DNA from: a virus
DNA length: 29,675 nucleotides
Virus record (IMG/VR): IMGVR_UViG_3300027965_000014
Location: 1 to 29,675 of that record
Direction: 5' to 3' (one strand)
The notes beneath the pieces were generated by a model that was not told where the DNA came from, searched no databases, and saw only the letters and a program-made list of their open reading frames with translations. Positions 2,571-19,520 of the stretch are shown piece after piece; position 1 is the first letter of the stretch; every line of letters starts with the position of its first letter. A program made the translations under genes and the position numbers.

Positions 2571-2589
2571 TTTAGACAGATTGACCAAA
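2571..2589. promoter_or_regulatory. Operator-like dyad 1
   Basis: TTTAGACAGATTGACCAAA is a 19-bp imperfect dyad with 7-bp arms and a 5-bp centre. It lies 62 bases upstream of the first gene of the leftward operon. It shares its layout and most bases with nine other sites in this window. It is the expected position for repression of a leftward early promoter. I could not fix a convincing -10/-35 pair. Confidence 0.7.
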
Positions 2590-2611
2590 CACCAGATGTG
2601 GCGTCGCTGCT

Positions 2612-2630
2612 TTTGGTCGATTCGTTTAAG
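2612..2630. promoter_or_regulatory. Operator-like dyad 2
   Basis: TTTGGTCGATTCGTTTAAG; on the other strand it reads CTTAAACGAATCGACCAAA. It has the same 7-5-7 layout as the site at 2571-2589, and its GACCAAA arm is identical to that site's. The two are 41 bases apart, about four helical turns, between the repressor gene and the leftward operon. Confidence 0.65.
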
Positions 2631-2638
2631 CGCCAGAT

Positions 2639-2656
2639 GATCGTTCGTAGACGATC
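2639..2656. repeat. Inverted repeat after repressor stop
   Basis: GATCGT and ACGATC form a perfect 6-bp inverted repeat with a 6-base loop, starting just past the repressor stop codon at 2660. There is no clear T-run, so it is at best a weak terminator. It may instead be part of the leftward control region. Confidence 0.35.
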
Positions 2657-2659
2657 ACT

Positions 2660-3046
2660 CTACCTATGCGGGTCAGCTCCGTTGTCGTCGAGCGGCGGCT
2701 TGCGCGACCGCGTCGCGCGCTTGCGCTTCGGTTTCGACTTGGGCTCGACGGCGCCTATAGTCTTCGATGCCTTCACGTTGCCTTGCTGGATCAGCTGGCG
2801 CACCTTCGGCTTGAGCGAGTCGAGCGTTCCGCCATAGAGCCAGTTGAAGTCAACGCCGTGCTCGGCGACAACGACGGCGGCGGTGTCGGCATCCAGCGCA
2901 CGCCGCCCTGTCTCGTAGTTGTACCAGCGTTGCGGCGTGAGCTTGACGCTGCGCGCCATCTCCGATGCGTTGCCATACAGTCGCTCTCGCAACAGCAGCA
3001 GACGCCCAGCAATCTCCTTCTGTCGCTTCTTCCCTTTAGATGCCAA
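2660..3046 (-). CDS. XRE-family phage repressor (CI-like), TTG start
   Basis: A 128-residue DNA-binding protein. A helix-turn-helix domain covers about residues 12-72 (ASEMARSVKLTPQRWYNYET is the core), followed by a linker and a very basic Lys/Arg-rich tail (residues about 95-118). There is no LexA/CI-type S24 peptidase domain, so cleavage on SOS induction is not expected from this protein itself. The start is TTG at 3046, with GGAGGT five bases upstream. No ATG lies nearby before the HTH. Two tandem operator-like dyads sit 50-90 bases upstream and two more lie beyond its 3' end. Its position opposite a Cro-like gene makes it the likely lysogeny repressor and the likely binder of the dispersed dyads. 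The last point is inference. Confidence 0.85.
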   Translation of the reverse strand: MASKGKKRQKEIAGRLLLLRERLYGNASEMARSVKLTPQRWYNYETGRRALDADTAAVVVAEHGVDFNWLYGGTLDSLKPKVRQLIQQGNVKASKTIGAVEPKSKPKRKRATRSRKPPLDDNGADPHR

Positions 3047-3095
3047 GCAAAACCTCCGACCCCCGTGATTGTTCCTTCGGCACGCCGTGCTCGCC

Positions 3096-3114
3096 CATAG
3101 ACACCCTGTTTAAG
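3096..3114. promoter_or_regulatory. Operator-like dyad 3
   Basis: CATAGACACCCTGTTTAAG, with 7-5-7 layout, lies upstream of the repressor start. It is placed 20 bp from the next dyad, so the two would lie on nearly the same face of the helix, as paired phage operators do. Confidence 0.6.
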
Positions 3115-3115
3115 A

Positions 3116-3134
3116 GTGTAACGGATTGTTTAAG
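3116..3134. promoter_or_regulatory. Operator-like dyad 4
   Basis: GTGTAACGGATTGTTTAAG, with 7-5-7 layout, lies next to dyad 3 in the 253-bp divergent region between the repressor (leftward) and the Cro-like gene (rightward). Its GTTTAAG arm is identical to that of dyad 3 and of the site at 2612-2630. This divergent region otherwise shows no gene. Confidence 0.65.
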
Positions 3135-3270
3135 AGACTTTCCAGCGCGACGCGAGCGGCATTTGATTACAGGGGGCTGACAGCGACCCAACATTTGGGG
3201 AGTTGGTTCGTTCCGTGGCGCTGCAATGAACGACCAGTTATCCACCGTTTTCGATTATGCGACTTGTCGA

Positions 3271-3289
3271 TTTAGACAGATTGGCGAAA
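3271..3289. promoter_or_regulatory. Operator-like dyad 5
   Basis: TTTAGACAGATTGGCGAAA. Its first 13 bases are identical to the site at 2571-2589. It ends 10 bases before the ATG of the Cro-like gene, so a bound protein would block the early rightward transcript or cover the translation start region. Confidence 0.7.
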
Positions 3290-3299
3290 GTCCGCGCCC

Positions 3300-3650
3300 A
3301 TGCGGGACCTCAAAGTCATCACCGATCTGTGTGACGCGCTGGGCGGCCTGTCGGCGACGGCACGGGAGTTGTCGATCCCCGACCGGCCACTGACGCCGCA
3401 GCACATCTATAACTGGAGAAAGCGCGGCAGGGTTGCGCCAGAGCAGCGGCTCAACTTCCTCACTGTGTTTAACCGGGTGATGCCCAAGCGTAAGCACCTC
3501 GATCTGACGTGGCTTGCCAGTCCCGCTGCCAACAGCAACGGGAGTGCATCGCATGGCGGAAAGAGCAGGCGGAAAGCGCCAGCGCGCAAAGCGCGGCGGC
3601 GGTCGGCGCGGCAAGCGCGGCAACGGGGCGACGCCCGGCCCCGGCCATAA
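3300..3650 (+). CDS. Cro-like helix-turn-helix protein, first rightward gene
   Basis: A 116-residue protein. Residues about 4-60 form a YdaS/Cro-like HTH (ALGGLSATARELSIPDRPLT, then QHIYNWRKRGRVAPEQRL). A segment ending TWLASPAAN follows, then a strongly Arg/Lys-rich tail. Divergent orientation to the repressor and a dyad just ahead of its start fit a Cro or CII-type switch protein. Its last 98 bases overlap the next gene in another frame. The basic tail is the overlapping part, so it may be a by-product of that overlap. The ribosome site is weak (GAAAG). Confidence 0.75.
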   Translation: MRDLKVITDLCDALGGLSATARELSIPDRPLTPQHIYNWRKRGRVAPEQRLNFLTVFNRVMPKRKHLDLTWLASPAANSNGSASHGGKSRRKAPARKARRRSARQARQRGDARPRP

Positions 3651-4107
3651 CTCGGGCGAAGTTCCGTCCGAGGTAATCCAGAGGCACTACGCCCAAATCG
3701 GCACGGCGCTCAAGGCGAGCAAGGCCGCCGACGAGGTGGCGAAGAAGAAGCGGGCCGCGTTGCAGAACGCCTACAAGGCGGCGAAGTCGGACGGCTGTCC
3801 GGTCGACGCCATGAAGGACGCCCGCAAGCTCAACGACGGCGACCATGCCGAGGCGATCCTGCACTACAAGGACGTCGGTCGCGTGCTGGAGATCACCGAG
3901 AGCGAGCTGCCGCTGTTCCGCGAGATCACGCTGCCGCCGCCAGTCAACGCGTACCTGGCGGGCAAGCAGGCGGGCCGCGAAGGCGCGCCCGCCGACAGCA
4001 ACCCCCATCAGCCCGGCTCCGAGGAGTTCGTGCGCTGGGGCGAAGGCCACCAGAGCGGCGTCGACGCGGCGGTGGAGAGCTTCCGCGGCGGCGTGCCCGC
4101 GAGCTGA
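3553..4107 (+). CDS. Early phage protein with GHN motif, unknown function
   Basis: A 184-residue protein from the ATG at 3553 (GGGAG ribosome site nearby). An upstream TTG in the same frame is open but lies deeper within the Cro-like gene. The N-terminus is very basic, then PGPGHNSGE, which echoes the GIGHNQPP motif in the leftward coiled-coil protein. A helical, Lys/Ala-rich region follows (about residues 45-90). The C-terminal third contains YLAGKQAGREG and WGEGHQSGVDAA, of the type seen in alphaproteobacterial phage proteins placed upstream of a resolvase. I do not know its function. It may bind nucleic acid through the basic arm. Confidence 0.8.
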   Translation: MAERAGGKRQRAKRGGGRRGKRGNGATPGPGHNSGEVPSEVIQRHYAQIGTALKASKAADEVAKKKRAALQNAYKAAKSDGCPVDAMKDARKLNDGDHAEAILHYKDVGRVLEITESELPLFREITLPPPVNAYLAGKQAGREGAPADSNPHQPGSEEFVRWGEGHQSGVDAAVESFRGGVPAS

Positions 4108-4113
4108 TCACGG

Positions 4114-4617
4114 ATGGGCGCGATGGCGATCCGCGTCCTCGCGCTCGACTGCTCGACCAATGTCGGCTGGGCGGTCTTTGAGAGCCCAGTCGGGCGCGTG
4201 CGCTTCGATACGTGGCGCGCGCCCAAGAGCTTCCTGCACGCCAACTATGGCCGCTCGTTCGTCGCGCTGGAGCAATGGCTCGTCGATCAGCTCTTGCGCT
4301 ACGTCCCCGACGTGGTCGCCTTCGAGGCCCCCATCATGCCCTTCGCCGGGTTCATCGAGCAGCGCTCCAGCCTCGACATCGTGCGCCTGCTGGTCGGCAT
4401 GGCGTCGGTGGTCGAGCTGGTCGCGACCCGCGCGGGCGCCCACTGCATCGAGGTGCCGGTGCCAACCGCCAAGAAGCGGCTGTCCGGCGACGGCCGGGCC
4501 ACCAAGCGCCAGATGATCAACGCGGCGATCAACCTGGGCCATCTCGTCGAGGACGATCATCAGGCCGACGCCATCGCCGTCGCGCTCGCGGCCTACGACC
4601 ACATCGGGGCGTCGTGA
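4114..4617 (+). CDS. RuvC-like Holliday junction resolvase
   Basis: A 167-residue protein of the RNase H fold. It has the expected acidic active-site positions: D12 in LALDCSTNVGWAV, E71 in VVAFEAPI, and the C-terminal EDDHQADAIAVAL with D148 and D152. Phage RuvC-type enzymes resolve branched DNA made during replication and recombination, and can trim DNA before packaging. It starts six bases after the upstream gene. A second possible ATG lies three codons inside (4123), and neither has a strong ribosome site. Length fits the family. Confidence 0.85.
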   Translation: MGAMAIRVLALDCSTNVGWAVFESPVGRVRFDTWRAPKSFLHANYGRSFVALEQWLVDQLLRYVPDVVAFEAPIMPFAGFIEQRSSLDIVRLLVGMASVVELVATRAGAHCIEVPVPTAKKRLSGDGRATKRQMINAAINLGHLVEDDHQADAIAVALAAYDHIGAS

Positions 4618-4645
4618 GTGCGCGGGCGCTAGAAGCGGTCGCGCC

Positions 4646-4843
4646 ATGAGCATCAACGACCAGCCGAAGGATCGGCGGCCACAGTGGCTGCTGCGCAAGT
4701 GCGCCCAGATCAGCCAGCGCCGCAAGGACCGCTTCGGCGAGATGCCCGAGAACCTCGAGGAGTGGTGGCGGCAGATTCTGCAGGCGGCGACCGACCTGCG
4801 TCTGGAGACGAGCCCGCGCGATTGGGAGCGCTGGCCCGAATGA
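4646..4843 (+). CDS. Small protein of the replication module, 65 aa
   Basis: A 65-residue, Trp- and Arg-rich protein (five Trp, including EEWWRQ and DWERW). It is coupled by ATGA to the DUF1376 gene downstream, which suggests a joint role in replication, perhaps as a small partner. No family is recognised. Coding looks real because it fills the gap exactly between the resolvase and the replication gene. Confidence 0.7.
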   Translation: MSINDQPKDRRPQWLLRKCAQISQRRKDRFGEMPENLEEWWRQILQAATDLRLETSPRDWERWPE

Positions 4844-5253
4844 TCACCGATCCGATCAAGGTGCGCCGCATCGACTTCTCGCCCGACGAGTGGCTCGCTG
4901 CCACGCTGCGGCTGACCGCCATCGAGAAGGGATGTTACTGGACGGTCTGCGCCCTGATCTACAGCAAGGGCGGACCGATCGACGACGATCCGCGCTGGAT
5001 CGCGAGAAATTGTGGGTGCGATGTCAGGACGTGGAAGGCCGTGCGCCGGCGCCTGCTCGCGCTGGGGAAAATCGAGCGCATCGAACCGCCGAAAGGCCCA
5101 ATCAACGCCATTTCCGGCTGTGGGCAAATTACCAACCGACGCTGTGAGCAGGAGCTGAACAAGGCGAGAACGCGGACGATCTCCGCGCGATCTGCTGCTG
5201 ATCGTTCGGCGATCTCCCGGCGATCTCGCAGAGATCGCGGGCGGCTTTCATGA
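4840..5253 (+). CDS. DUF1376 (YdaU-like) replication protein, short form
   Basis: A 137-residue protein. Residues about 10-85 match the DUF1376 pattern: RIDFSPDEWLAATLRLTAIE, then GCYWTVCALIYSKGGPI, DDDPRWIARNCGC and a winged-helix-like end, KIE. DUF1376 proteins are phage replication initiator or primosome-type proteins. Here the C-terminal part after the domain is short and Arg/Ser-rich, and the frame closes where related proteins usually run on. The following 187 bases (5254-5440) hold no convincing gene. Either the tail is naturally short or an old frameshift removed it. The start overlaps the previous stop (ATGA). Confidence 0.8.
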   Translation: MITDPIKVRRIDFSPDEWLAATLRLTAIEKGCYWTVCALIYSKGGPIDDDPRWIARNCGCDVRTWKAVRRRLLALGKIERIEPPKGPINAISGCGQITNRRCEQELNKARTRTISARSAADRSAISRRSRRDRGRLS

Positions 5254-5440: not shown

Positions 5441-5977
5441 ATGGCGAATGCCCGCAAGCGCAGGGCACGCAAGGCACGGCGTGCCGTCAACCGAGGCGAC
5501 CGCGTGAAGGCGACACCCGAGACGCTCGCCAAGCTGCGGCCGCATCCCCTCGAGGTGCTGCTCGCCCGTGGTCGAGAGGACGGCGGCATCGACGCCGATC
5601 AGCTGCAGTGCGCCGAGGAGATCGTCGACGCCTTCGCCGCCATCACGCGTGGCCTTGGCATCAAGGGCGCGATGCTGGAGCGGATCGGCGGCGCTGGGCA
5701 CGACGAGCTGAGCCCGCGTGAGGAGCGCCTGTCGGTGATCTGGTTCGCATGGGCGGCCGAGCTGCCGCGACGCCTGCTGCCGCGCCCGGTGGTCGTCGTC
5801 GAGCTGATCGCCGCCGTGCGCCCCGCCAAGTCGGACGACATTCGACGGCTCGGTCGTGCCCTCGATCTGTGGGCGAAGGTGCGCCAAGACAGCGCGCGGC
5901 CTGTGCGCGAGGTTTCAACAATTCGTCCAAATCTGCTTGACAGCTACCAGACGCGTTTGACAGTCTCCGGTCGCTGA
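5441..5977 (+). CDS. Conserved phage protein of unknown function, 178 aa
   Basis: A 178-residue protein with a basic N-terminal arm (RKRRARKARRAVNRGDR). A segment HPLEVLLARG and IDADQLQCAEEI follows, then helices. An AAGGAGGT ribosome site gives a firm start. It lies last in the early rightward genes and just before the HNH gene, where phages often keep a late regulator. The architecture would allow an antiterminator-like role but no motif shows it. An operator-like dyad (5913-5931) lies inside its last 65 bases. Confidence 0.8.
   Translation: MANARKRRARKARRAVNRGDRVKATPETLAKLRPHPLEVLLARGREDGGIDADQLQCAEEIVDAFAAITRGLGIKGAMLERIGGAGHDELSPREERLSVIWFAWAAELPRRLLPRPVVVVELIAAVRPAKSDDIRRLGRALDLWAKVRQDSARPVREVSTIRPNLLDSYQTRLTVSGR
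5913..5931. promoter_or_regulatory. Operator-like dyad 6, within a coding end
   Basis: TTTCAACAATTCGTCCAAA, with 7-5-7 layout. It is inside the 3' end of the preceding gene and 62 bases ahead of the HNH gene. Two TTGACA hexamers follow at 5937-5942 and 5957-5962, but no good -10 is seen at the right distance from either. Confidence 0.6.
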
Positions 5978-5993
5978 GGTGTGTCCGCCGCAG

Positions 5994-6857
5994 ATGCCGA
6001 CACGACCCGCCCTCCATCAACCTCACTTCGCCAAGACCGCCGAGCAGCGAGCCCTGGCCGAGCGCGAGCGCATGCGAGAGCGCGACGCGCAACGGCCCAG
6101 CAGCAGCGAGCGCGGCTATGATCGCGAGTGGCGCGAGCTGCGCGCCTCCTTCATCCTCGACCACCCGACGTGCTGTGTGCGGGGCTGCGGTCGACCGACG
6201 GTCGACGTTGACCACGTCGAGGACATCCGCGCCCATCCCCACCGTCGCCTCGACCGGACGAACCTGCGCCCGTTCTGTCACGCGCACCATGCGCAGCGTA
6301 CCGCTCGTGAGCAGGGCTTCGCTCGACCGCGTGAGCTGCGCGACGGTGCTCGCGTCTCGACACGGGGCGCCCTCTACCCTGATTGGCTGCGCCCCTCGCG
6401 CGTGCCGCTCCAGCTCGTGTGCGGCCCTCCTGCAGCAGGCAAGTCCCAATTCGTCAACGAGCGCGCTTCGTTCACCGAGCTGGTTCTCGACCTCGACGAG
6501 ATCAAAGCCGCGCTGTCCGGCCTGCCGATCTACCAGCCCGGCCTGGCATGGCGAGGGGAGGCCCTGCGCCACCGCAACGCCTCGCTGGGCCGCCTGTCCG
6601 GTCATCATCCGAATGTCTCCGGGGCTTGGCTCATCGTCGGCGAGCCCACGCCGCAATGGCGTCAGTGGTGGCGCGAGCGGCTGCGGCCTCTCGTGGTGTG
6701 GGTCATGCCGACCCCCGCTGATGTCTGCCACGCCCGCATCGATGCCGACCCTCGCCGCGAGTTGGTCCGCGATCTGCACCACGTTGCAGTCGACGACTGG
6801 TGGAGACGCTACGAGCCGATGAAGGGCGACCGCGTGGTCAATGCTCAGGGGGGATGA
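5994..6857 (+). CDS. HNH endonuclease fused to a P-loop ATPase/kinase-like domain
   Basis: A 287-residue two-domain protein. Residues about 40-105 form an HNH zinc-finger nuclease: C60/C65, the DVDHVEDI core with D73-H74, N90 and C95-H96. Residues about 138-285 form a P-loop domain with Walker A GPPAAGKS (144-151) and LVLDLDEI downstream, as in small nucleotide- or polynucleotide-kinase-like ATPases. HNH proteins next to the terminase assist packaging-site cleavage in HK97-like phages. What the kinase-like half adds is unknown. The ATG at 5994 has GAGGTG upstream. An in-frame GTG at 5979 is an alternative start. Confidence 0.85.
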   Translation: MPTRPALHQPHFAKTAEQRALAERERMRERDAQRPSSSERGYDREWRELRASFILDHPTCCVRGCGRPTVDVDHVEDIRAHPHRRLDRTNLRPFCHAHHAQRTAREQGFARPRELRDGARVSTRGALYPDWLRPSRVPLQLVCGPPAAGKSQFVNERASFTELVLDLDEIKAALSGLPIYQPGLAWRGEALRHRNASLGRLSGHHPNVSGAWLIVGEPTPQWRQWWRERLRPLVVWVMPTPADVCHARIDADPRRELVRDLHHVAVDDWWRRYEPMKGDRVVNAQGG

Positions 6858-7071: not shown

Positions 7072-7263
7072 ATGCGTACGCTCCTTCAATATCCCGACGC
7101 CCGCGAAATGATCGAGCACAGCCATCGCTTGATCTGGCAGTCGCGTCTAGTCCTGGCGGACTCTGAGCGATGCTTGGAGCTAGCTTTGTATCTTCGGGCC
7201 TTTCTCGCCTGCCTCGCCGCGCCCGTTGAGGCAAGCTCATCGGGAGATCGCCCAACCGAGTAG
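7072..7263 (+). CDS. Possible small protein, 63 aa
   Basis: A 63-codon frame begins at ATG 7072 (MRTLLQYPDAREMIEHSHRL). It encodes an amphipathic helical stretch and a Cys-containing hydrophobic part (LELALYLRAFLACLAA). There is no good ribosome site. It resembles short host-type proteins of rhizobia more than the phage neighbours. It may be a remnant of host DNA carried into the phage. Real expression is doubtful. Confidence 0.3.
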   Translation: MRTLLQYPDAREMIEHSHRLIWQSRLVLADSERCLELALYLRAFLACLAAPVEASSSGDRPTE

Positions 7264-7285
7264 ACGTGAAGCCGTCGGAGGCATC

Positions 7286-7885
7286 ATGGCCACAAGGACG
7301 GCAACCAAGAGCGACGAGCTCCAGTTGGACATGACGGCGCTTAACGTCGAGCAGCGCGACCCGCGCCAGCTCAAGCCGCACCCCAAGAATTCGCGCTTCC
7401 ACCCCGAAGTACAGCTCAAGCAACTGGCAGCGTCCTTGCGCCGGTTCGGCATCACCAAGCCGATCCTGATCGATGACGACGACACGATCCTTGCGGGGCA
7501 CGCGACGACGCTCGCCGCCATCGAGTGCCGACTGCACACCGTGCCGGTGGTCGTGGCGCACGGCTGGACCGACCAGCAGAAGCGGGCCTACCTGATCGCA
7601 GACAACCGGCTCGGCGAGAAGTCGACATGGGACAGCACGCTGCTGGCGCTGGAGATCGGCGCTCTCAAGCCCATCGGCGACGATCTCGCGGCGATGGGCT
7701 TCACTGACAAGGATGTCGCCGCAGCCCTGCGGCGGGCAGGCCCCGACAAGCACGGCAGCGAGCAGCAGCTCGGCGACGGGCTCGCTTATCGGGTGATCGT
7801 CGACTGCCGCGACGAGTCGCACCAGACCGAGCTGATTGAGCGCTTCGATGGTGAGGGCCTGAAATGCCGCGCGTTGATCTCGTAG
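7286..7885 (+). CDS. ParB-like nuclease-fold domain protein
   Basis: A 199-residue protein with a ParB/Srx-fold domain at about residues 25-110: LKPHPKNSRFH, then GITKPILIDDDDTILAGHATTLAAIE, then KRAYLIADNRLGE. The usual GHxR element reads GHATT, so the Arg is missing. A small C-terminal domain (YRVIVDCRDESHQTELIERF, then CRAL) is typical of phage ParB proteins. In many prophages this ParB type is fused to a DNA methyltransferase before the terminase; here that place is taken by an ABC-GNAT fusion. It is likely a DNA-binding or DNA-modification accessory. GGAG lies before the ATG, and the gene overlaps the next by 22 bases. Confidence 0.8.
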   Translation: MATRTATKSDELQLDMTALNVEQRDPRQLKPHPKNSRFHPEVQLKQLAASLRRFGITKPILIDDDDTILAGHATTLAAIECRLHTVPVVVAHGWTDQQKRAYLIADNRLGEKSTWDSTLLALEIGALKPIGDDLAAMGFTDKDVAAALRRAGPDKHGSEQQLGDGLAYRVIVDCRDESHQTELIERFDGEGLKCRALIS

Positions 7886-8964
7886 TCCGCAGTCCCATCG
7901 CGCACACGCCGCGCGCCCGCCAGCTGGAGGCGCTGTTTGACGTGCCCGCCATCGAGCAGAGCGAGCGCGAATGGCACGGCGAGGTGCCCATCGACGCGCG
8001 CGACTGGAACGTCGGGCTGATCGTGGGGCCATCGGGCAGCGGTAAGTCGACGATCCTCCGCGATCTGTTCGGAGAGCCAGCGACGTTGACGTGGGGCGGC
8101 GCGTCGGTGATCGAGGATTTCGACCGCGCCCTGTCGATGAAAGAGATCTCCGATATGTGTCAGGCGGTCGGCTTCAACACCATTCCGGCGTGGCTGCGCC
8201 CCTACAGCGTGCTGAGCAACGGCGAGCGCTTCCGCGTCGAGCTGGCCCGCCGTATGCTGGAGACGACCGGCGTCGTCGCGGTCGACGAATTCACGTCGGT
8301 GGTCGACCGCCAGGTTGCGAAGATCGGCGCGCATGCCGTCCAGAAGAGCATCCGGCGCACGGGCAAGCGATTCGTTGCAGCGTCGTGCCACTACGACATC
8401 CTCGATTGGCTGCAGCCCGATTGGACACTGGAGCCCGCCTCGATGTCGTTCACATGGAGGGAGCTTCGGCGACGACCGGACATCACGGTCGAGCTTCGCC
8501 ATGTCGAGTATCGCGCGTGGGAGCTTTTCGCGCCGTTTCACTATCTGACTGCCGAGCTGAACCACGCCGCGCGCTGCTGGTGCCTGTTCGTCGACAGGCA
8601 GCCGGTGAGCTTCGCCGCCGTGCTGCATCGGCCGACCAATCGCCCAACACGCATCAAGGGCGTGTCGCGGCTCGTGACGCTGCCCGACTGGCAGGGGCTG
8701 GGGCTCGCGCTGATCCTCGTCGACCATCTTGGCGCGCTCTACGCCGCGCAGGGCTTCGAGCTGCGGACCTATCCCGCGCACCCGGCGCTGATCCGTTCCT
8801 TCGACCGATCGCCCCGCTGGAAGCTGGAGAAGAAGCCCGGCCGGTTCTCCTCGAGGCCGGGCGAGACGGGCAACGCGCCTATGGGCGGGCGTCCGTGCGC
8901 GGTTTTCTCGTACTGCGGCGAGGCGGGCGATTCGGCCGAGGCGCGCGCGGCGCTCGCCGACTAA
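7864..8964 (+). CDS. ABC-type ATPase fused to GNAT acyltransferase domain (Mom-like?)
   Basis: A 366-residue fusion. The N-terminal half is an ABC ATPase without membrane segments: Walker A GPSGSGKST (55-63), signature LSNGERFRVELAR (117-129), Walker B VVAVDEF (137-143) and H-loop SCH (174-176). The C-terminal half (about 205-350) is GNAT-like, with SRLVTLPDWQGLGLALILVD (268-287) matching the acetyl-CoA-binding motif. An HPALIRSFDRSPRWKL stretch (306-321) follows. COG2401-type proteins have this make-up, and the phage Mu Mom adenine-modifying enzyme is a GNAT. Together with ParB this suggests DNA base modification, which is inference. It is not a transporter, because there is no permease. Confidence 0.8.
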   Translation: MPRVDLVVRSPIAHTPRARQLEALFDVPAIEQSEREWHGEVPIDARDWNVGLIVGPSGSGKSTILRDLFGEPATLTWGGASVIEDFDRALSMKEISDMCQAVGFNTIPAWLRPYSVLSNGERFRVELARRMLETTGVVAVDEFTSVVDRQVAKIGAHAVQKSIRRTGKRFVAASCHYDILDWLQPDWTLEPASMSFTWRELRRRPDITVELRHVEYRAWELFAPFHYLTAELNHAARCWCLFVDRQPVSFAAVLHRPTNRPTRIKGVSRLVTLPDWQGLGLALILVDHLGALYAAQGFELRTYPAHPALIRSFDRSPRWKLEKKPGRFSSRPGETGNAPMGGRPCAVFSYCGEAGDSAEARAALAD

Positions 8965-8969
8965 GGGGG

Positions 8970-8984
8970 TGTCCGCTTTGTCCC
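8970..8984 (+). repeat. Left copy of TGTCCGCTTT direct repeat
   Basis: TGTCCGCTTTGTCCC matches TGTCCGCTTTACCCC at 9871-9885 in 13 of 15 bases. The two copies bracket the AT-richer GIY-YIG gene. The sequence between here and 9158 has no gene and resembles rhizobial intergenic DNA. Confidence 0.45.
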
Positions 8985-9158
8985 GAAAAACCGACATTGG
9001 CGTAGGACGAAGGCATGTCCGTTAGGGGCCACAAGCGTTTCCATAACGAGTGTCTGCGGGTAGCATTCGCTGTTTCTGGCGCGATGCCAGTTGCTGGCAG
9101 GCAAGCTGAGGTTGAGCGCTGGTTTTCTGAGGTCCGATGAGCTGTTAGGTAACTTTGA

Positions 9159-9770
9159 ATGGCCGAATTTCTCTACCCCCACGGAGTTATATACGTTTTT
9201 GAAAACTCCGATGCGCAGCGCGTGAAAGTTGGCATGACGGGTATTGGCGTCAACAACGTTGGCGATCGGCTTAGAGACATCAATGACATGTGGCTAGAAC
9301 GCAAGGTCACTTGCCAGATCTGTGGAGGACGTTTGGTTAGCGTCGGGGGGCTTGTTCCTGAACATGTTAAAAGTGGTAATCGTTGCTCGGGAGGGCGCGC
9401 GTTACCCCTTGAGAAAGATGTGGCGCTTGCAGAGTCTCATCTGCAAAATATTAGAAGTCGTCTCAACGAGCTTGTTGACAGTGAAAAAGGATCAGCCACT
9501 CGAATAGCTAATACGCTTGAGAAGCGATTAGAACGGTATCGACATCGCAATCGACAAGTTGGAACTTGGCAATTCAGGATAGCTTTTTTCACGAAAGGTG
9601 TTGCCGAAGTTGAATCGCTCTCACATAACATCCTCGCGGAGCATCTGGATAAGCTAGCACCATTTGGAGAAGTCTTTTGTTGCTCAGTGTCAGAAGCCAC
9701 GAAAGCGGTTGAAGCAGCGCTGAGTCAGCTAGGACTGTTACATTCAGCCAGGAAAGCAACTCACTTGTGA
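9159..9770 (+). CDS. GIY-YIG / T5orf172-type nuclease-like protein with zinc-finger insert
   Basis: A 203-residue protein. GIYVF-like IYVFEN (11-16) and VKVGMTG (22-28) mark the GIY-YIG core. A Cys-rich insert (C52, C55, C76) may bind zinc. The C-terminal part (HNILAEHLDKLAPFGEVFCC, then VSEATKAVEAAL) matches the T5orf172/MUG113 branch. Such proteins are putative DNA nucleases found in phages and defence islands. The gene is visibly richer in A and T than everything around it, has its own leader and is bracketed by short repeats, so it looks acquired. It could be a homing-type, anti-competitor or defence gene. No substrate is evident. Confidence 0.75.
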   Translation: MAEFLYPHGVIYVFENSDAQRVKVGMTGIGVNNVGDRLRDINDMWLERKVTCQICGGRLVSVGGLVPEHVKSGNRCSGGRALPLEKDVALAESHLQNIRSRLNELVDSEKGSATRIANTLEKRLERYRHRNRQVGTWQFRIAFFTKGVAEVESLSHNILAEHLDKLAPFGEVFCCSVSEATKAVEAALSQLGLLHSARKATHL

Positions 9771-9851
9771 ATTCGCGAGAGCTCCGCTCTGCTTCGAAAG
9801 CCGGCATTGTACATCGTAATCGGAACGTCTGAGATGGGTCAGGAGGCGACA

Positions 9852-9890
9852 TGCCGGGGTCGTCGCCAGATGTCCGCTTTACCCCCGGCA
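9852..9890. repeat. Inverted repeat between convergent genes
   Basis: TGCCGGGGT and ACCCCCGGCA form a 9-bp stem with one bulged C and a 20-base loop, at and just beyond the convergent ends of the GIY-YIG and ASCH genes. No T-run follows. The right TGTCCGCTTT repeat (9871-9885) sits in the loop and stem. It could be a weak bidirectional terminator or part of the cargo boundary. Confidence 0.3.
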
Positions 9891-10202
9891 ACGGACAGTT
9901 CGAGATTTACGGGTACCCGCCCTAGGCGCGGGTGAAAGCTCAATAGCGACCAGTCTGGCGCGGTGACCGTAGATTGCTGCCGCGTGGGGCACGATCGCGG
10001 CGGGCACGACCGATACCGCCTTGATCATCATCTGCAGGCGCGGCCCCGAGTAGCCGCGCGACAGTATGACGGGTCGACCGACCGGCAGGCGCTCCAGCTT
10101 GCCGAGTGGCCCGCCGAGGCGGCGGTATTCAGTGGTCTTGGTGCCTGCGGCGAAGGCGTCGAAGTATTCCCCCTTCAACGGCACCCATAGCGGCGTGGTC
10201 AT
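9879..10202 (-). CDS. ASCH-domain (PUA-like) protein, leftward
   Basis: A 107-residue protein. WVPLKGEYFDAFAAGTKTTE (6-25) followed by YRR, and later VGRPVILSRGYSGPRL, match the ASCH fold of the PUA superfamily, which binds RNA or modified bases. It is transcribed against the terminase genes, and its start (ATG at 10202, or 10205) overlaps the start of the small terminase on the other strand. The last 15 residues lie in the host-like stretch and may not be original. ASCH proteins are common beside terminases in rhizobial phages. A reader role for modified DNA would fit the nearby ParB/ABC-GNAT pair, but that is inference. No strong ribosome site is seen. Confidence 0.7.
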   Translation of the reverse strand: MTTPLWVPLKGEYFDAFAAGTKTTEYRRLGGPLGKLERLPVGRPVILSRGYSGPRLQMMIKAVSVVPAAIVPHAAAIYGHRARLVAIELSPAPRAGTRKSRTVRCRG

Positions 10203-10203
10203 C

Positions 10204-10710
10204 ATGCGCACAAAGAAACCGCTCCCGGCTGCGCTGCACAAGCTCCATGGCGAGCCGGGCCGCCGTCCGACAGTGGACGCCGAGCCCGAAGGCGTCGGCG
10301 ACATCTGGGCACCGCCCAGCTGGTTCGACGATCAGCAGCGCGAGCAATGGCACTACAGCGCCGAGCATGCGCCGCTCGGCCTGCTGACTGGCACCGACCG
10401 GGAAATCCTCGTCGTCTGGGTCGTCGCCTGCGTCGAGCACGCGCGCGCCTGCCAGAAGGTGCGCGAGCTGGGGCAAGTCGTCAGCACCCGCGAAGGCGGC
10501 GTGATGCAGAACCCATACCTCGGCGTGATGAACCGCCAAGCTCACATCATGCTGCGCACCGCGTCGGAGCTCGGGTTCTCGCCCGCCGCTCGCGCGGGCC
10601 TGGGCCGCACGGCGCCGGAGTTTGACCCGCATGCCCCAGCGCTCGGCCAGCCGCGCAACAACGCGCGCCTCGCGGCCTACCTCGACCGCAAGCCCGACAA
10701 GCTCAACTGA
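10204..10710 (+). CDS. terS: Terminase small subunit, P27 family
   Basis: A 168-residue protein. The N-terminus KKPLPAALHKLHGEPGRRP and the following WAPPSWFDDQQREQWHY match the P27 (HK97 gp1-like) small terminase family. A helical core and a short tail with P and R follow. It recognises the packaging site and loads the large subunit. The ATG at 10204 follows no strong ribosome site and overlaps the divergent ASCH start. The 3' end overlaps the large terminase by about 80 bases. Confidence 0.9.
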   Translation: MRTKKPLPAALHKLHGEPGRRPTVDAEPEGVGDIWAPPSWFDDQQREQWHYSAEHAPLGLLTGTDREILVVWVVACVEHARACQKVRELGQVVSTREGGVMQNPYLGVMNRQAHIMLRTASELGFSPAARAGLGRTAPEFDPHAPALGQPRNNARLAAYLDRKPDKLN

Positions 10711-12358
10711 CGAGACGACCGCCTATGCCCGCGCCGTCATCGCAGGCGAGATAATCGCCTGCCGCTATGTCAGGCTGGCCTGCAAGCGGCACCTGTCGGA
10801 TCTGAAATTCGGCCGCCGACGCGGACTCTGGTTCGATGCCGCCGCCGCGCAGCATCGCATCGGGTTCTATCCAGCGTTCCTGCGCCACTCCAAAGGCGAG
10901 TGGGCGCGTCGCCCGGTCGAGCTGTCGTCGTGGCAGAAATTCGTGATCGGCTCGGTGTTTGGCTGGAAGCGCAAGGACGGCACGCGCCGCTTCCGCTATG
11001 TCTACGAGGAGCTGCCACGAAAAAACGGCAAGAGCACCAAGCTGGCCGGCGTCGGCCTGGACATGCTGGCGTGTGACGGTGAGCCCGGCGCCGAAATCTA
11101 CGCCGCCGCGACCAAGCGCGATCAGGCGCGGATCATCTTCGATGAGGCCAAGCGCATGGTCGGCAGCTCGCCCGATCTCGCGGCGACGATTGCCCGATAC
11201 AAGCTCAACCTCAGCATCGACGCCACCGCCTCGAAATTCGAGCCGCTGTCGTCCGACGACCGGACGCTCGACGGGCTCAATCCGCACTGCGTACTCGTCG
11301 ACGAGCTGCACCGGCACAAGACGCGCGCGCTGCTCGACGTGCTCGACACCGCGCTGGGCGCTCGCCGCCAGCCGCTGCTATGGATCATCACCACCGCGGG
11401 CGACGACGACCCGGAGAGCGTCTACACGGCGGAGAACGACTACGCGATCAAGGTGCTGGAGGGCGCCGTCGAGGATGACAGCGTGTTCGCGTTCATCACC
11501 ACCATCGACAAGGGCGACCGCTGGGACGATCCGCAGGCGTGGGCGAAGGCGAACCCCAACCTCGGGATCTCGGTCAAGCTTGACGATTTGGAGCGCCAGG
11601 CCCGCAAGGCGGCCAAGAGCGCGGGCGCACTGGTCGCCTTCAAGCGGCTACGGCTCAACGTGCGCAGCTCGGCGATGGATCGCGTCATCGACATGGCGCA
11701 ATGGGCGCGCAACTCGCGGGGCCGCTTCGACCCCGACAAGCTCGACCAGCGCCGCTGCTTCGCCGGGCTCGACCTGTCGAGCAAGATCGACATCAGCGCC
11801 TTCGTGCGCCTCTACGAGCCCGACGAGAGCGGCATCATGCGGATCGCCTGCCGCTTCTGGATGCCCGCCGACACCGTCGAAGAACGCGCCGACCGTGACC
11901 GCATGCCGTACCGGCGATGGGTGGAGGAAGGATGGATCGAGGCGACCCCCGGCAACGTCATCGACCATGCCGAGATCAAGGCGGCGATCATCGCCGACGC
12001 CAAGCGGTACGACATCGAGTCGCTCGCCTTCGATCCATGGAATGCAACGCAGCTCGCCGTCGAGCTAAACGAGGCAGGCGTCGAGGCGGTTGAATTCATC
12101 CAGGGCATGCGCAGTTACACCGCGCCGACCAAGGAACTGCAGGCCCTGATCGCCGACCGCAAGCTCGATCACGGCGACAACCCCGTGCTCACCGTGATGG
12201 CGTCCAATCTCAAGGTGCAGCGCGACAAGAACCTCAACGAGATGCCGAACAAGGCGCACAGCACCGGCCGCATCGACGGGATCACCGCGCTGATCATGGC
12301 GCTGGGTCGCCGCATGACCGTGACGCAGCGCGGCGAACCCAGCGTGTTCTTCGTCTAG
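10631..12358 (+). CDS. terL: Terminase large subunit (ATPase-nuclease)
   Basis: A 575-residue protein of the HK97/phi-C31-like large terminase family. The ATPase has a deviant Walker A PRKNGKS (129-135), Walker B VLVDE (221-225) and a coupling segment IITTAG (252-257). The nuclease has LDLSS with D381, and FDPWNATQLA. It powers DNA translocation into the prohead and cuts the concatemer. The first 27 residues are Ser/Arg/Thr-rich and overlap the small subunit in another frame. Family similarity begins near AYARAVIAGEII. A TTG at 10622 is also possible. It shares its stop with the opposite-strand gene in the tetranucleotide CTAG. Confidence 0.92.
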   Translation: MPQRSASRATTRASRPTSTASPTSSTDETTAYARAVIAGEIIACRYVRLACKRHLSDLKFGRRRGLWFDAAAAQHRIGFYPAFLRHSKGEWARRPVELSSWQKFVIGSVFGWKRKDGTRRFRYVYEELPRKNGKSTKLAGVGLDMLACDGEPGAEIYAAATKRDQARIIFDEAKRMVGSSPDLAATIARYKLNLSIDATASKFEPLSSDDRTLDGLNPHCVLVDELHRHKTRALLDVLDTALGARRQPLLWIITTAGDDDPESVYTAENDYAIKVLEGAVEDDSVFAFITTIDKGDRWDDPQAWAKANPNLGISVKLDDLERQARKAAKSAGALVAFKRLRLNVRSSAMDRVIDMAQWARNSRGRFDPDKLDQRRCFAGLDLSSKIDISAFVRLYEPDESGIMRIACRFWMPADTVEERADRDRMPYRRWVEEGWIEATPGNVIDHAEIKAAIIADAKRYDIESLAFDPWNATQLAVELNEAGVEAVEFIQGMRSYTAPTKELQALIADRKLDHGDNPVLTVMASNLKVQRDKNLNEMPNKAHSTGRIDGITALIMALGRRMTVTQRGEPSVFFV

Positions 12359-12786
12359 TGCAGCCAGTCCTCAAAAACCTCGACGCCCGGCCACCACAGC
12401 GTCAGGCGTCCGCGCAGCTCGGTGCGTACCCTCCATACGCCGAGATCGCGATTGAGGGCGCGATACAGCTTCGGCCGCCGCTGCAGCGCCCGGAAGATGT
12501 CGACGGTGCGCTGTCGCAGCTTGATCGCGTTGTTGCACGCCACGCCGAGAAACAGGCGTCGCTCGACCGGCACGACGACGAGTGTCAGGTCGAGCTGCGT
12601 GAGAAGGCGCGCGAACGGCTGGTGCCGGTCCGCAACGAAATAGAATGAGCGATCATCCGCCCCTGCCGGGTGGATGCGCTCTCTCGTGGCGGCTCTGATC
12701 GTCGCCTCCGCCTCATAGTCGTCGTCGATCTGGTAGTGCCCGCACTCGTGAACCTCGGACCATCTAAACAACGCCCGCTCCGTCAT
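12355..12786 (-). CDS. Leftward gene of unknown function inside late region, 143 aa
   Basis: A 143-residue protein beginning MTERALFRWSEVHECGHYQI. A GGAGGAG ribosome site seven bases before the ATG supports it strongly. The sequence alternates charged and beta-like segments (LDLTLVVVPVERRLFLG) and ends with a Trp-rich part (GVEVFEDWLH). It is transcribed opposite to packaging and head genes and converges with terL, the two stops overlapping in CTAG. Two operator-like dyads lie about 150 bases upstream. The layout is that of an independently expressed accessory gene. I do not recognise a family. Confidence 0.7.
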   Translation of the reverse strand: MTERALFRWSEVHECGHYQIDDDYEAEATIRAATRERIHPAGADDRSFYFVADRHQPFARLLTQLDLTLVVVPVERRLFLGVACNNAIKLRQRTVDIFRALQRRPKLYRALNRDLGVWRVRTELRGRLTLWWPGVEVFEDWLH

Positions 12787-12936
12787 GTTCGGCTCCTCCG
12801 GGTTTTTTGTTCTGGCCCGCTGCGGCTGGCGGGTCGACTTGGGCGGGTTGCGCTCCCGCACGTCGCGACGAGGGGGAAGCTGTGCTCGTCGCGTGGTTCA
12901 AGATCGTACAGATGCCGCGGCTTCACACGCAACCGT

Positions 12937-12955
12937 CTTAAACAGATTGTTCTCA
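12937..12955. promoter_or_regulatory. Operator-like dyad 7
   Basis: CTTAAACAGATTGTTCTCA has 7-5-7 layout, with a good left arm and a weak right arm. It sits between the divergent genes starting at 12786 (leftward) and 12995 (rightward). The rest of this 208-bp gap shows no gene. Confidence 0.5.
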
Positions 12956-12969
12956 ACAGATCGTGTAAA
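12951..12969. promoter_or_regulatory. Operator-like dyad 8
   Basis: TCTCAACAGATCGTGTAAA, with 7-5-7 layout, overlaps dyad 7 by five bases. It ends 25 bases before the start of the small basic gene at 12995. Confidence 0.55.
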
Positions 12970-12994
12970 GCGTGCGCCCAGAAAGGTCACAGCC

Positions 12995-13168
12995 ATGACA
13001 ACGATCAAGAGCAAGCGCCCAAGAGCTGGACTCGGGCTTGGCTCGGCGATCACGCCTGATCGACTCGTCTCGCGCAGCGCGCACGCAGCCACCACGCGGA
13101 AGCCGAAGCAGGTACGGTCGAGCAAACCGGCGCGACCGGTGCGAGAGACTCGCAAGCCGCCGCGCTAG
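12995..13168 (+). CDS. Small basic protein, 57 aa
   Basis: A 57-residue protein rich in Arg, Lys, Ser and Pro (MTTIKSKRPRAGLGLGSAIT, then a tail of RKPK/RETRKPPR type). It is probably unstructured and able to bind nucleic acid. AGAAAGG lies eight bases before the ATG. Its stop overlaps that of the convergent leftward gene in CTAG. It is a rightward insert between terminase and protease with its own pair of dyads. Function is unknown. Confidence 0.55.
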   Translation: MTTIKSKRPRAGLGLGSAITPDRLVSRSAHAATTRKPKQVRSSKPARPVRETRKPPR

Positions 13169-13458
13169 AGCGGCGTTCCCCACAAACCAGACCAGTACAG
13201 CAGGCATCGCTCGCCGGGCTCGATGTCCCACGCGCGACTAACGGGCGCCATGTCAATACCGGCATCTCCTGCGGCGTGGCCGATGCGAAACGCAGCGCGC
13301 TGCCGCGCGCGATCATCATCGAAGCTCAGCACGAGATAGCGGCGATCCGGCGGCTCGTCGACCACCGAGCCACTCACGACGCGCAGCTCGTACCAGAGCC
13401 GCTTTAGCAGCTCGAGGAACGGCCAGACCTCGCGCCGAACGACGATGCCCGCACCCAT
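13165..13458 (-). CDS. Leftward gene of unknown function, 97 aa
   Basis: A 97-residue protein, probably alpha/beta, with a conserved look: EVWPFLELLKRLWYELRVVS, then RRYLVLSFDDDRARQRAAF, and a C-terminus WDIEPGERCLLYWSG. It starts only 33 bases from the oppositely oriented prohead protease gene, with one operator-like dyad in between. No ribosome site is evident because the dyad occupies the leader. It converges with the small basic gene through an overlapping CTAG stop. No family is recognised. Confidence 0.65.
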   Translation of the reverse strand: MGAGIVVRREVWPFLELLKRLWYELRVVSGSVVDEPPDRRYLVLSFDDDRARQRAAFRIGHAAGDAGIDMAPVSRAWDIEPGERCLLYWSGLWGTPL

Positions 13459-13462
13459 CGGA

Positions 13463-13481
13463 TTTCAACAAATCGTCTAAA
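13463..13481. promoter_or_regulatory. Operator-like dyad 9
   Basis: TTTCAACAAATCGTCTAAA, one of the best matches to the consensus. It fills most of the 33-bp gap between two divergent start codons and directly abuts the GGGGGAG ribosome site of the protease gene. There is no room for two ordinary promoters here. Confidence 0.7.
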
Positions 13482-13491
13482 GGGGGAGACC

Positions 13492-14136
13492 ATGCCCTCA
13501 AACCGCACCGCGCCGCAAGTGGGCGTGGCGATCTCGCGCGCCGTCACCATCGAGAAGGCCGCGAGCGACGGCCTGCGCCGCGTGCGCTTCGTCGCGTCAG
13601 ACGAAACTGTGGATCGCTATGGGGACATCATCCGCGCCAGCGGCTGGCAGCTCGACAACTTCCGCAAAAACCCCGTGCTGCTGTTCGGCCATCAGTCGGG
13701 CCAGCTGCCGGTCGGCAAGGTCGACCCGATCGCCGTCGAAGGCACGCGCCTGATCGCGCACGCCGAATTCACGCCCGAGGGCATGTCGAGCTTCGCCGAC
13801 ACGGTGTGGGCGATGGTCGATCAGGGGTTCGTCCAGGCCGCATCGGTCGGCTTCCTGCCGCTCGCCGCGCCCAACCCGATCTTCGATGCCGACAAGCATC
13901 TCACTGGCTTTGAATTCATCGCTCAAGAGCTGCTGGAGCTGAGCGTCGTCACGGTTCCCGCGAACCCGAACGCGCTGCAGCTCGCCAAGAGCTTCGCCTT
14001 GTCAGGCGAGGAAATGCGCTGCCTGTTCGACGACGGGGCTGCCGCCCGCGTCGCAGCCGCAGCGCGCACCCGCACCATCACTCTTTCCCGCCTCGGCAGG
14101 CATCAGGCGGCCCCCACCCCCGAACGGGGAGCTTAG
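13492..14136 (+). CDS. HK97-family prohead protease
   Basis: A 214-residue serine protease of the U35 type. The N-terminal RRVRFVASDETVDRYGDII leads into NPVLLFGHQSGQLPVG with the likely catalytic H67. The likely catalytic S117 lies in QAASVGFLP, and ELLELSVVTVPANPNAL is the usual family ending. It cleaves the scaffold-like delta domain of the major capsid protein during head maturation. The C-terminal 45 residues are low-complexity and may be a self-cleaved tail. GGGGGAG before the ATG sets the start. The major capsid gene follows two bases on. Confidence 0.9.
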   Translation: MPSNRTAPQVGVAISRAVTIEKAASDGLRRVRFVASDETVDRYGDIIRASGWQLDNFRKNPVLLFGHQSGQLPVGKVDPIAVEGTRLIAHAEFTPEGMSSFADTVWAMVDQGFVQAASVGFLPLAAPNPIFDADKHLTGFEFIAQELLELSVVTVPANPNALQLAKSFALSGEEMRCLFDDGAAARVAAAARTRTITLSRLGRHQAAPTPERGA

Positions 14137-14138
14137 TC

Positions 14139-15539
14139 ATGTCTATTCGCAAGCAGATCGAGGCGCTCCAGAAGAAGCGGAACGCCCACCTCGACGCTAT
14201 GCAGGCGTTGAGCGATACGGCGGCCAACAACAACCGCCTGTTCAGCGAGGACGAGCAGAAGGCCTTCGACAAGGATCAGGGCGAGGTGCGCGACATCGAT
14301 GCGCAGCTTGACCGTCTGAACGAAGCCGAGAAGCAACTCGCCGGTCGGGCGCAGCCCGCGCCGACCCCGACGCCACAGCCGACGCCCCACCTCGAGGTCA
14401 AGCCCTACAAGGGGTTCAAGGGGCAGGGCTTCGTCCGGCTCGCGCTCGCGGTCGGTCGCACCAAGGGCAACTTCCAGATGGCGGCCGAGTACGCCGCGCG
14501 CTGGAAGGATCAGACGCCGGAAGTGTACGAGGTGCTCGCGCAGATCGCGCGCTCGGGGCAGCTTCCCGGCGAGGTCTACCGCGCCGCCGTCGCGGCCGGA
14601 ACGACCACCGATGCGCAGTGGGCTGGCCCGCTGGTGTACGCGCAGAACCTCGCCAGCGAGTTCATCGAGTTCCTGCGTCCGGCGACCATCATCGGCAAGC
14701 TGCCGCTGCGCCCTGTGCCCTTCAACGTGTCGATCCCGCGGCAGACGGGTGCCGCGTCGGTCGGCTGGGTCGGTCAGGGCATGTCGAAGCCTGCCGGCCA
14801 TCTGGCGTTCGATCGACTGCCCATCCCCTGGGCCAAGGTCGCGGTGATCGTCGTCATCACCGACGAGCTGGCGCGCTTCTCCGACCCGAGCGCCGAGCAG
14901 CTCGTGCGCGACGATCTGGTGGCGTCCATCGCGACGTACCTCGACGGGCAGTTCACCGATCCCGCGGTGGCGGCGGTCGCGAACGTCAACCCGGCGTCGA
15001 TCACCAACGGCGTTGCGCCCATCGTGGCCGCGACCGGCGGCGTTGCCGACATCAACACCGCGTTGACGCAGGCGATCCAGCAGCTCATCGCAGCCAACAT
15101 GCCGTTCACCAGCGTCTACTGGCTGCTGAACGCCGGCACCCGCGTGGCGCTCCAGAACCAGCGCATCCCGACCTATCTCAACTACGCGTTCCCGGAGATG
15201 GCCGCTGGCAATCTCAAGGGCTACCCGTGGGTCGAGAGCAACACGATCCCGCTCGGCACGGCGATCCTGGTCGACTGCTCGCAAATCCTGCACGCCGCCG
15301 ATCCGGTGGTAGACATCGAGGCGAGCAACGAGGCGTCGCTGCAGATGGACAGCGCCCCAGCGACCCCGCCGGCGCCGCTGATCTCGCTGTGGCAGCAGAA
15401 CATGCTCGGCATCAAGGCGGAGCAGTATCAGTATTGGGCCAAGCGGCATAACGGCTGCGTCTCCGTGGTCACTGGTGTCGTGCCGACCTCGATCGCCGAC
15501 GAAGGCGCGCCCACGTCGGGCAGCGGTCGCCATCGCTGA
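14139..15539 (+). CDS. Major capsid protein, HK97 fold
   Basis: A 466-residue protein. The N-terminal ~80 residues form a charged coiled coil (IRKQIEALQKKRNAHLDAM, then DEQKAFDKDQGEVRDIDAQL) that acts as the delta domain. A Pro/Thr-rich linker follows, then the HK97-type shell domain from about residue 100, with typical segments RPATIIGKLPLRPVPFNVSI and WVGQGMSKPAGHLAFDR. The ending TSIADEGAPTSGSGRHR is flexible. It forms the icosahedral shell. Its place directly after the protease is standard, but the portal comes afterwards rather than before. Confidence 0.92.
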   Translation: MSIRKQIEALQKKRNAHLDAMQALSDTAANNNRLFSEDEQKAFDKDQGEVRDIDAQLDRLNEAEKQLAGRAQPAPTPTPQPTPHLEVKPYKGFKGQGFVRLALAVGRTKGNFQMAAEYAARWKDQTPEVYEVLAQIARSGQLPGEVYRAAVAAGTTTDAQWAGPLVYAQNLASEFIEFLRPATIIGKLPLRPVPFNVSIPRQTGAASVGWVGQGMSKPAGHLAFDRLPIPWAKVAVIVVITDELARFSDPSAEQLVRDDLVASIATYLDGQFTDPAVAAVANVNPASITNGVAPIVAATGGVADINTALTQAIQQLIAANMPFTSVYWLLNAGTRVALQNQRIPTYLNYAFPEMAAGNLKGYPWVESNTIPLGTAILVDCSQILHAADPVVDIEASNEASLQMDSAPATPPAPLISLWQQNMLGIKAEQYQYWAKRHNGCVSVVTGVVPTSIADEGAPTSGSGRHR

Positions 15540-15596
15540 GCATCGCATGAGGAGGGGGGCGGACGAGCGCTCCACGCTTCGTCCGTCCACCTAAGC

Positions 15597-15614
15597 CGGG
15601 GCCATCGTGCCCCG
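15597..15614 (+). terminator. Possible weak terminator after capsid gene
   Basis: CGGGGC, a 6-base loop and GCCCCG form a short GC stem 57 bases after the capsid stop, followed by a moderately T-rich stretch (ATGTTCTTTCTC). There is no clean T-run. It may reduce read-through towards the opposing gene. Confidence 0.35.
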
Positions 15615-15629
15615 ATGTTCTTTCTCGCC

Positions 15630-15655
15630 AAAAAAGACCCCGCCGAAGCGGGGTC
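15630..15655 (-). terminator. Rho-independent terminator for the leftward basic gene
   Basis: On the minus strand GACCCCGC, a TTCG tetraloop and GCGGGGTC form a perfect 8-bp stem, followed by six T. It lies 25-50 bases past the stop of the leftward Lys/Ala-rich gene and is a textbook intrinsic terminator. In the rightward direction there is no T-run. Confidence 0.85.
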
Positions 15656-15679
15656 CAAAGTTCGTCGTTATCGAGCTGA

Positions 15680-16105
15680 TCAGCTCTTGATGCGAAAGAC
15701 GACGCCGCCGCGCTCTCCGTCGTGCTCCTTCGTCACGCTGTGTAGCTTGCGGACCTTGTCGCGGATCGCCGCGCGCACCTCGCGCGCCGTCTTGAAGCCC
15801 TTGATCGCCTTGGCGGCCTCCTCGTTGGTCGCGCCGTTCTTCGTCTTGAGCAGCGCGATCAGCTCGACGACATGCGGGGCGAGTGGCTTCGCCGGGCGCG
15901 TGTCGGGCACGGGCTTCTTCGTCGCCTCCGGCTTCGTCGCTGTCGCTGCAGCTGCTGCGGGCTTCTTCGTCTCGGTCGCCTTCGGCGCGGTGGCCTTGGG
16001 CTTGGCGGCCTTGGGCTGCGCCTTCGGCTTCGCGGTCTTGCTCTTAGCAGCGGCGTTGGGCTTGGCGCTCTTCGCGGCGGCGGTCGTGTTCGTCGTGGCA
16101 GTCAT
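15680..16105 (-). CDS. Lys/Ala-rich protein with DUF3489-like winged-helix end
   Basis: A 141-residue protein. The first ~80 residues are repeats of K, A, P and T (histone H1-like). Residues about 78-138 form a small folded domain (HVVELIALLKTKNGATNEEA, then KAIKGFKTAREVRAAIRDKV, ending GVVFRI). That domain resembles the rhizobial DUF3489 winged helix. It probably binds DNA. It is transcribed leftward between the capsid and portal genes, with its own AGAGGA ribosome site, an upstream operator-like dyad (16130-16148) and its own terminator, so it is a self-contained unit. It may act in lysogeny or on DNA condensation, which is inference. Confidence 0.8.
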   Translation of the reverse strand: MTATTNTTAAAKSAKPNAAAKSKTAKPKAQPKAAKPKATAPKATETKKPAAAAATATKPEATKKPVPDTRPAKPLAPHVVELIALLKTKNGATNEEAAKAIKGFKTAREVRAAIRDKVRKLHSVTKEHDGERGGVVFRIKS

Positions 16106-16129
16106 TGATCTAGTCCTCTGTCATCTTCG

Positions 16130-16148
16130 TTTAGACGAAATGTCCAAA
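16130..16148. promoter_or_regulatory. Operator-like dyad 10
   Basis: TTTAGACGAAATGTCCAAA is the most symmetric copy: TTTAGAC against GTCCAAA, one mismatch from perfect arms. It lies 24 bases upstream of the leftward basic gene and 110 bases before the portal gene. The rest of this 152-bp gap shows no gene. Confidence 0.7.
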
Positions 16149-19518: not shown

Positions 19519-19520
19519 CC

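Follow-up and report, generated by a model that had tools for sequence, protein, structure and literature searches.

We analysed the whole 29,675 bp (the window, G000) of an uncultured soil-phage virus record, IMGVR_UViG_3300027965_000014, which is partial and in which ten 19-bp dyads are found around a putative repressor gene and at several distant genes. The gene for an XRE/lambda-repressor-like protein diverges from a Cro-like gene, with dyads between and beside the two, which is the arrangement of a CI/Cro switch. The dyads follow the 7-5-7 pattern TTTARAC-N5-GTYYAAA, for which up to three mismatches were allowed. Five of them belong to the immunity region, and the five distal ones occupy four places at 2.6–12.9 kb from the immunity sites (Table 1). 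An earlier sequence-only reading had placed ten dyads at these positions, as the pattern scan and a symmetrised matrix confirm, and had located the distal ones at gene starts or a coding end. All of them stand at gene starts, and the 5913 site additionally falls within the 3' end of the upstream open reading frame (ORF). The earlier description of the network as genome-wide was too broad, because the tail half of the window (16.2–29.7 kb) holds no dyad, although the record is partial. The repressor had been called a plain XRE protein without a peptidase domain, and this agrees with both the Pfam search and the structure model. Pfam gives only weak helix-turn-helix (HTH) matches and no S24 peptidase domain in the 128 residues. 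The model places the HTH at residues ~3–74, while the basic tail is of low confidence and probably disordered, with no structure past residue ~90. The matches in a fold search were weak; HTH regulators such as P22 c2 and the 434 repressor made up most of them, and none among the matches listed fell below E 0.001. Since there is no self-cleavage domain, induction would take a route that does not involve RecA-stimulated cleavage of the repressor. The dyad at 3096 would provide autoregulation of the repressor. A DnaA-box-like sequence, TTATCCACCG, lies upstream of the Cro-like gene at 3238–3247 and is almost identical in a related record, G001.

The pattern scan of the window gave 17 strand-matches covering nine of the ten places (site 3116 misses the mismatch cut-off), against 0.85 ± 1.0 matches, with a maximum of 5, in 100 dinucleotide-preserving shuffles; a count of 17 was never attained. 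With the symmetrised matrix, the ten sites score 16.4–30.1, site 13463 being the highest, whereas the best other place in the window reaches 12.1 and the mean maximum in first-order Markov sequences is 11.1. When each site was left out of the matrix in turn, eight of the ten kept scores of 16.6–29.2 against ~11–13 for the best non-site. Moreover, a held-out matrix for which the five immunity sites (2571, 2612, 3096, 3116 and 3271) were the sole input scored the distal sites at 26.3 (13463), 24.1 (5913), 22.6 (16130), 17.4 (12937) and 17.0 (12951), all above the best other place in the window (14.1). Therefore, the distant sites are predictable from the repressor-flanking sites alone. Above a score of 15, there are nine places in the window against three in ~257 kb of related contigs (G017 excluded).

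The same sites are conserved in four related contigs. G001 (IMGVR_UViG_3300033475_000181, 17.9 kb) encodes a repressor and a Cro-like protein that are 62 and 67% identical to those of the window, respectively, and its eight sites are the eight best matches of the held-out matrix. In both L003 and L022, the pair is present together with the sites at the protease and on the portal side; L025 has single sites upstream of the 57-aa gene and of the leftward gene. The top eight, four, four and two held-out matches in G001, L003, L022 and L025 are the syntenic sites. A dyad precedes the 57-aa gene and the leftward gene in all four contigs and the protease start codon in three. The spacing of the pair is 14 bp in the window, 25 bp in G001 and L022, and 37 bp in L003. 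The 5913 element is conserved as DNA, and from a reading of the frames the overlapped ORF end is poorly conserved as protein. Across 28 sites in five contigs, the consensus could be refined to TTTNRAC-RRWYY-GTYNAAA (half-site TTTNRAC-RRW), with C7/G13 invariant in 56 of 56 half-sites and T3 present in 54. The sites are symmetric and without orientation, and most are matched on both strands. When a genome collection was scanned twice for a host, with repressor and portal profiles, no relative came up, and the alphaproteobacterial host assumed in the earlier reading is therefore only putative. In the phage collection, nothing matched the repressor or came close to matching positions 9000–20000 of the window. 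The contig L094 carries a distant Cro relative in a different local arrangement. Two further repeats were observed next to distal sites. Directly after the 5913 dyad there is a direct repeat, TTGACAG-N13-TTGACAG (5937–5963, 20-bp period), conserved in G001 although the encoded C-terminus is not, which is possibly a -35 or activator site. Upstream of the pair, at 12842–12859 and in the orthologues, an inverted repeat of the type GGCGGGTTGCGCTCCCGC is conserved in four contigs.

The sequence of the site tracks the repressor, since G001 (62% identity) has the same motif and G004 (~41% over the HTH) a different one. G004 (IMGVR_UViG_3300025928_000015, 46 kb) has the gene order of the window, and its Cro-like protein is also diverged (~30% identical). 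The matrix scan found the window motif absent from G004. A different dyad, ATCAACG-N3-CGTTGAT, is located around its repressor and at places matching those of the window. At two mismatches or fewer, this motif has 13 sites in G004 compared with a mean of 0.07 for permuted half-sites; it occurs six times in ~217 kb of other related contigs (~1.3 expected in G004), a comparison by which codon bias is controlled. At one mismatch or fewer, there are five in G004 and none in the other related contigs. The promoter-like CCGACA-N16-TA-G-T of the leftward gene is common to G004 and the window, and the operators adjoining it differ. The first candidate in G004, TTTGGCAA-N7-TTGCCAAA before the protease gene, was a single occurrence and was dropped. 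In the GC-rich contigs, GC dyads arising from codon usage overwhelmed an unsupervised clustering of dyads. In G017, where the repressor is 34% identical, a weaker version of the window motif is present at 32522 (between excisionase-like and integrase genes), 33082 and 29693, with candidates in the immunity region. A strong G017 dyad, TATAAACAGCTTGTTTAGA (L041:12522-12540), separates an excisionase-like ORF from the integrase gene. Left-operon genes and the Cro-like gene are retained in G005 without a recognisable repressor gene (L034:2992-4700), and it is possibly a natural virulent derivative; it has no window-type site (best score 11.0) and no dyad was seen before its protease gene. Tyrosine integrases are encoded in G004 and G017, and the group is therefore probably temperate.

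The held-out prediction, the conserved positions and, most strongly, the operator swap that accompanies a diverged repressor lead us to read the ten dyads as probable operators of the phage's own immunity switch, a dispersed network read by its repressor and probably by the Cro-like partner too. We put the probability of this reading at roughly 0.87. It upholds the earlier proposal that the phage's own regulator acts through dispersed operators, and the comparison of sequences strongly suggests that one small repressor silences the dormant virus at many points simultaneously. HTH proteins of the lambda/P22 type usually occupy dyads of such a length as dimers, and we infer that the 128-aa repressor would likewise bind these operators as a dimer. 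In the prophage, it would shut the left-operon and cro promoters as well as its own, and the HNH/ATPase, 57-aa-gene, protease and portal-proximal leftward units would also be silenced. These sites are probably also read by the Cro-like protein when the phage grows lytically. Repression at the distal sites is probably mixed. At 16130, the dyad starts ~8 nt past the -10-like element and should therefore cover the transcription start, and before the protease Shine-Dalgarno at 13463 a block to read-through is possible.

Several points weigh against the dispersed operator network. In the leave-one-out test, the scores of 10.4 for site 3096 and 12.2 for site 3116 are near background, so this pair is not individually significant; as a counterweight, the G001 site at 1489 occupies the same place upstream of the repressor gene. 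The G004 motif was selected visually in the protease upstream and immunity regions before it was tested, and its matches at three mismatches or fewer include coding background. None of the HNH, 57-aa-gene and protease sites showed a recognisable conserved promoter. The absence of sites in G005 rests on the known motifs and inspection. The window record contains no integrase, so lysogeny is inferred. Furthermore, the repressor and Cro-like protein diverge together and their roles are not separated.

The strongest alternative is that the distal sites are true stoperators, at which the repressor blocks elongating RNA polymerase in the late operon, as in mycobacteriophage L5. The arrangement at 13463 fits a roadblock, because this site and its orthologues lie between the 57-aa gene and the protease gene, abut the Shine-Dalgarno and have no conserved promoter-like sequence upstream. 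The 5913 site overlaps an ORF end, a G004 site separates an excisionase-like gene from the gene that comes next in the leftward operon, and the G017 site has an excisionase-like gene on one side and the integrase on the other. However, the 16130 site is just 3' of a conserved promoter-like element, the sites are symmetric, unoriented and all at gene starts, and promoters of GC-rich phages are easily overlooked. Cluster A mycobacteriophages have 20–30 sites oriented with transcription, of which some are operators and most are stoperators, and the consensus follows the repressor type (PMC6550527). Their repressor is a monomeric two-domain protein in the crystal structure and recognises an asymmetric 13-bp site (PMC9283540). 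As in L5 and Bxb1, the present phages have many candidate repressor sites outside the immunity region, some of them in promoters, and different repressors go with different site sequences. Unlike the asymmetric oriented 13-mers of L5, there are about ten symmetric, unoriented 19-bp dyads and a small XRE protein. We consider the stoperator explanation a serious possibility, with the odds leaning against it. Where the sequence-only reading offered an operator or stoperator network, its dispersed operators find support; a block to elongation is the less likely part, against which the promoter-like element at 16130 and the symmetry of the dyads speak. A more tentative proposal, which we hold to be rather doubtful, is that a small XRE-type repressor roadblocks transcription of the head-gene operon at symmetric dyads in a non-actinobacterial siphoprophage. 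It would be a stoperator system independent of L5, with its site set rewritten along with repressor specificity.

The main reader of the distal sites in lytic growth might also be the Cro-like protein (3300–3650) and not the repressor. Cro and repressor usually share operators, and both proteins have diverged in G004, which would suit such a role. Yet G005 has a Cro-like gene without a recognisable repressor and is without sites, and we regard this explanation as unlikely. It is much less probable still that the dyads bind a host regulator. Scattered sites at gene starts would suit a host regulon too, but the dyads surround the repressor gene, and a related phage has a different motif along with its different repressor, while promoter and position are kept. 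RNA hairpins in 5' leaders, acting as attenuators or in translation control, could be imagined from inverted repeats near start codons. However, at six of the seven pair positions the two arms vary without statistical dependence across the 28 sites, many sites retain just 2–5 of seven Watson-Crick pairs, and pairs 4 and 5 are Watson-Crick in only 9 and 12 sites, respectively, as independent arms predict. Arms that vary independently indicate a two-fold protein dimer site and not an RNA stem, and we rejected the hairpin as highly improbable. A chance or compositional artefact, for which only the weakness of 3096 and 3116 once left out of the matrix would speak, is refuted by the shuffles, the held-out prediction and the conservation in four other contigs, and can practically be dismissed.

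The system is best filed as a CI/Cro-type switch with operators dispersed into the head-gene region. It resembles the switches of lambda, P22 and N15 in that the repressor and Cro-like genes point away from each other and are accompanied by operators, both in the interval separating them and toward the left operon. Lambda and P22 keep their operators within the immunity region, whereas here they reach the portal gene ~13 kb away, and the repressor lacks a domain for self-cleavage. The conserved inverted repeats of phiC31 and the c1 operators of P1 are dispersed as well. The phiC31 sites are inverted repeats as here, those of P1 are asymmetric, and the repressor families and hosts of both differ from the present ones. 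In SPbeta, the master repressor MrpR (YopR) acts at many SPBRE copies across the prophage and keeps it silent (PMC10516654). The likeness lies in one repeated element bound at many copies by a silencing repressor, but MrpR has a tyrosine-recombinase fold, and here we have a helical HTH model and 7-5-7 dyads. Dispersed networks are thus known in Cluster A mycobacteriophages and SPbeta, and the open-access papers that we searched describe none for this phage group, in line with the earlier reading.

Table 1. Features of the window and candidate operator sites in two related records.
Feature	Position	Strand	Basis and context
Candidate operator dyad, left-operon side of repressor gene	2571..2589	.	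pattern + matrix; 7 bp upstream of leftward ORF 2360-2563; conserved as G001:962
Second candidate operator dyad, left-operon promoter region	2612..2630	.	pattern + matrix; degenerate G001 counterpart near 1003
Putative repressor gene, XRE/lambda-repressor-like, 128 aa, TTG start	2660..3046	-	phrog_2328, phrog_8; HTH_19 below cut-off; structure model
Candidate operator dyad, 49 bp upstream of repressor start	3096..3114	.	pattern + matrix; G001:1489 in same place
Weaker adjacent dyad, 20 bp from 3096 dyad	3116..3134	.	matrix
Candidate operator dyad, 10 bp before Cro-like gene	3271..3289	.	pattern + matrix; G001:1663
Cro-like DNA-binding gene, YdaS / carph-isopro type HTH	3300..3650	+	phrog_8008; NF046037 below cut-off
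Candidate distal operator, 3' end of ORF 5441-5977	5913..5931	.	pattern + matrices; 62 bp before ATG 5994 of HNH/ATPase gene; G001:4325
HNH endonuclease / AAA ATPase gene, small-terminase-like, likely start 5994	5979..6857	+	phrog_4581
Candidate distal operator, first of overlapping pair before 57-aa gene	12937..12955	.	pattern + matrices; pairs in G001, L003, L022, single in L025
Candidate distal operator, second of pair	12951..12969	.	pattern + matrices; 25 bp before ATG 12995
57-aa basic protein gene between terminase and protease	12995..13168	+	conserved in relatives
Candidate distal operator abutting prohead protease Shine-Dalgarno	13463..13481	.	matrix; 10 bp before ATG; G001:13309, L003:634, L022:3374
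Prohead protease gene	13492..14136	+	phrog_617, phrog_80
Leftward gene inside head-gene region, Lys/Ala-rich N-terminus	15680..16105	-	weak DUF3489 match
Candidate distal operator, 24 bp before leftward gene	16130..16148	.	just 3' of promoter-like element; G001:16154, L003:3488, L022:7742, L025:6157
Promoter-like element CCGACA-N16-TAGGAT, leftward-reading	16149..16190	-	TA-G-T conserved; conserved in relatives incl. G004
G001 sites	962; 1489; 1663; 4325		before left operon; repressor; cro; HNH gene
G001 distal sites	13032, 13057; 13309; 16154		before 57-aa gene; protease; leftward gene
G004 sites (L005 orientation)	39758; 40349; 45434		before left operon; 33 bp before cro; before HNH
G004 further sites (L005 orientation)	6507; 10277; 32384		before protease; leftward gene; excisionase-like/next gene of leftward operon

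Elsewhere in the window, a ParB-like gene followed by a fusion gene for an ABC-type ATPase and GNAT acetyltransferase (phrog_11143) spans 7226–8964. The region 9000–9900 is a low-GC island (0.53 compared with ~0.67) that looks like a recent insertion, and its ORF 9159-9770 weakly matches T5orf172 (GIY-YIG type).

Most textbook CI-type repressors act at a single clustered immunity region. In the phage described here, a small HTH repressor would read no fewer than seven distinct places, and in a relative whose repressor specificity is new the orthologous places bear a new motif. The question of how a repressor that is obeyed at many sites can change its specificity thereby becomes testable in one phage group. 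Moreover, these phages provide a natural panel (same motif, swapped motif and repressor gene absent) with which operator and stoperator action could be told apart.

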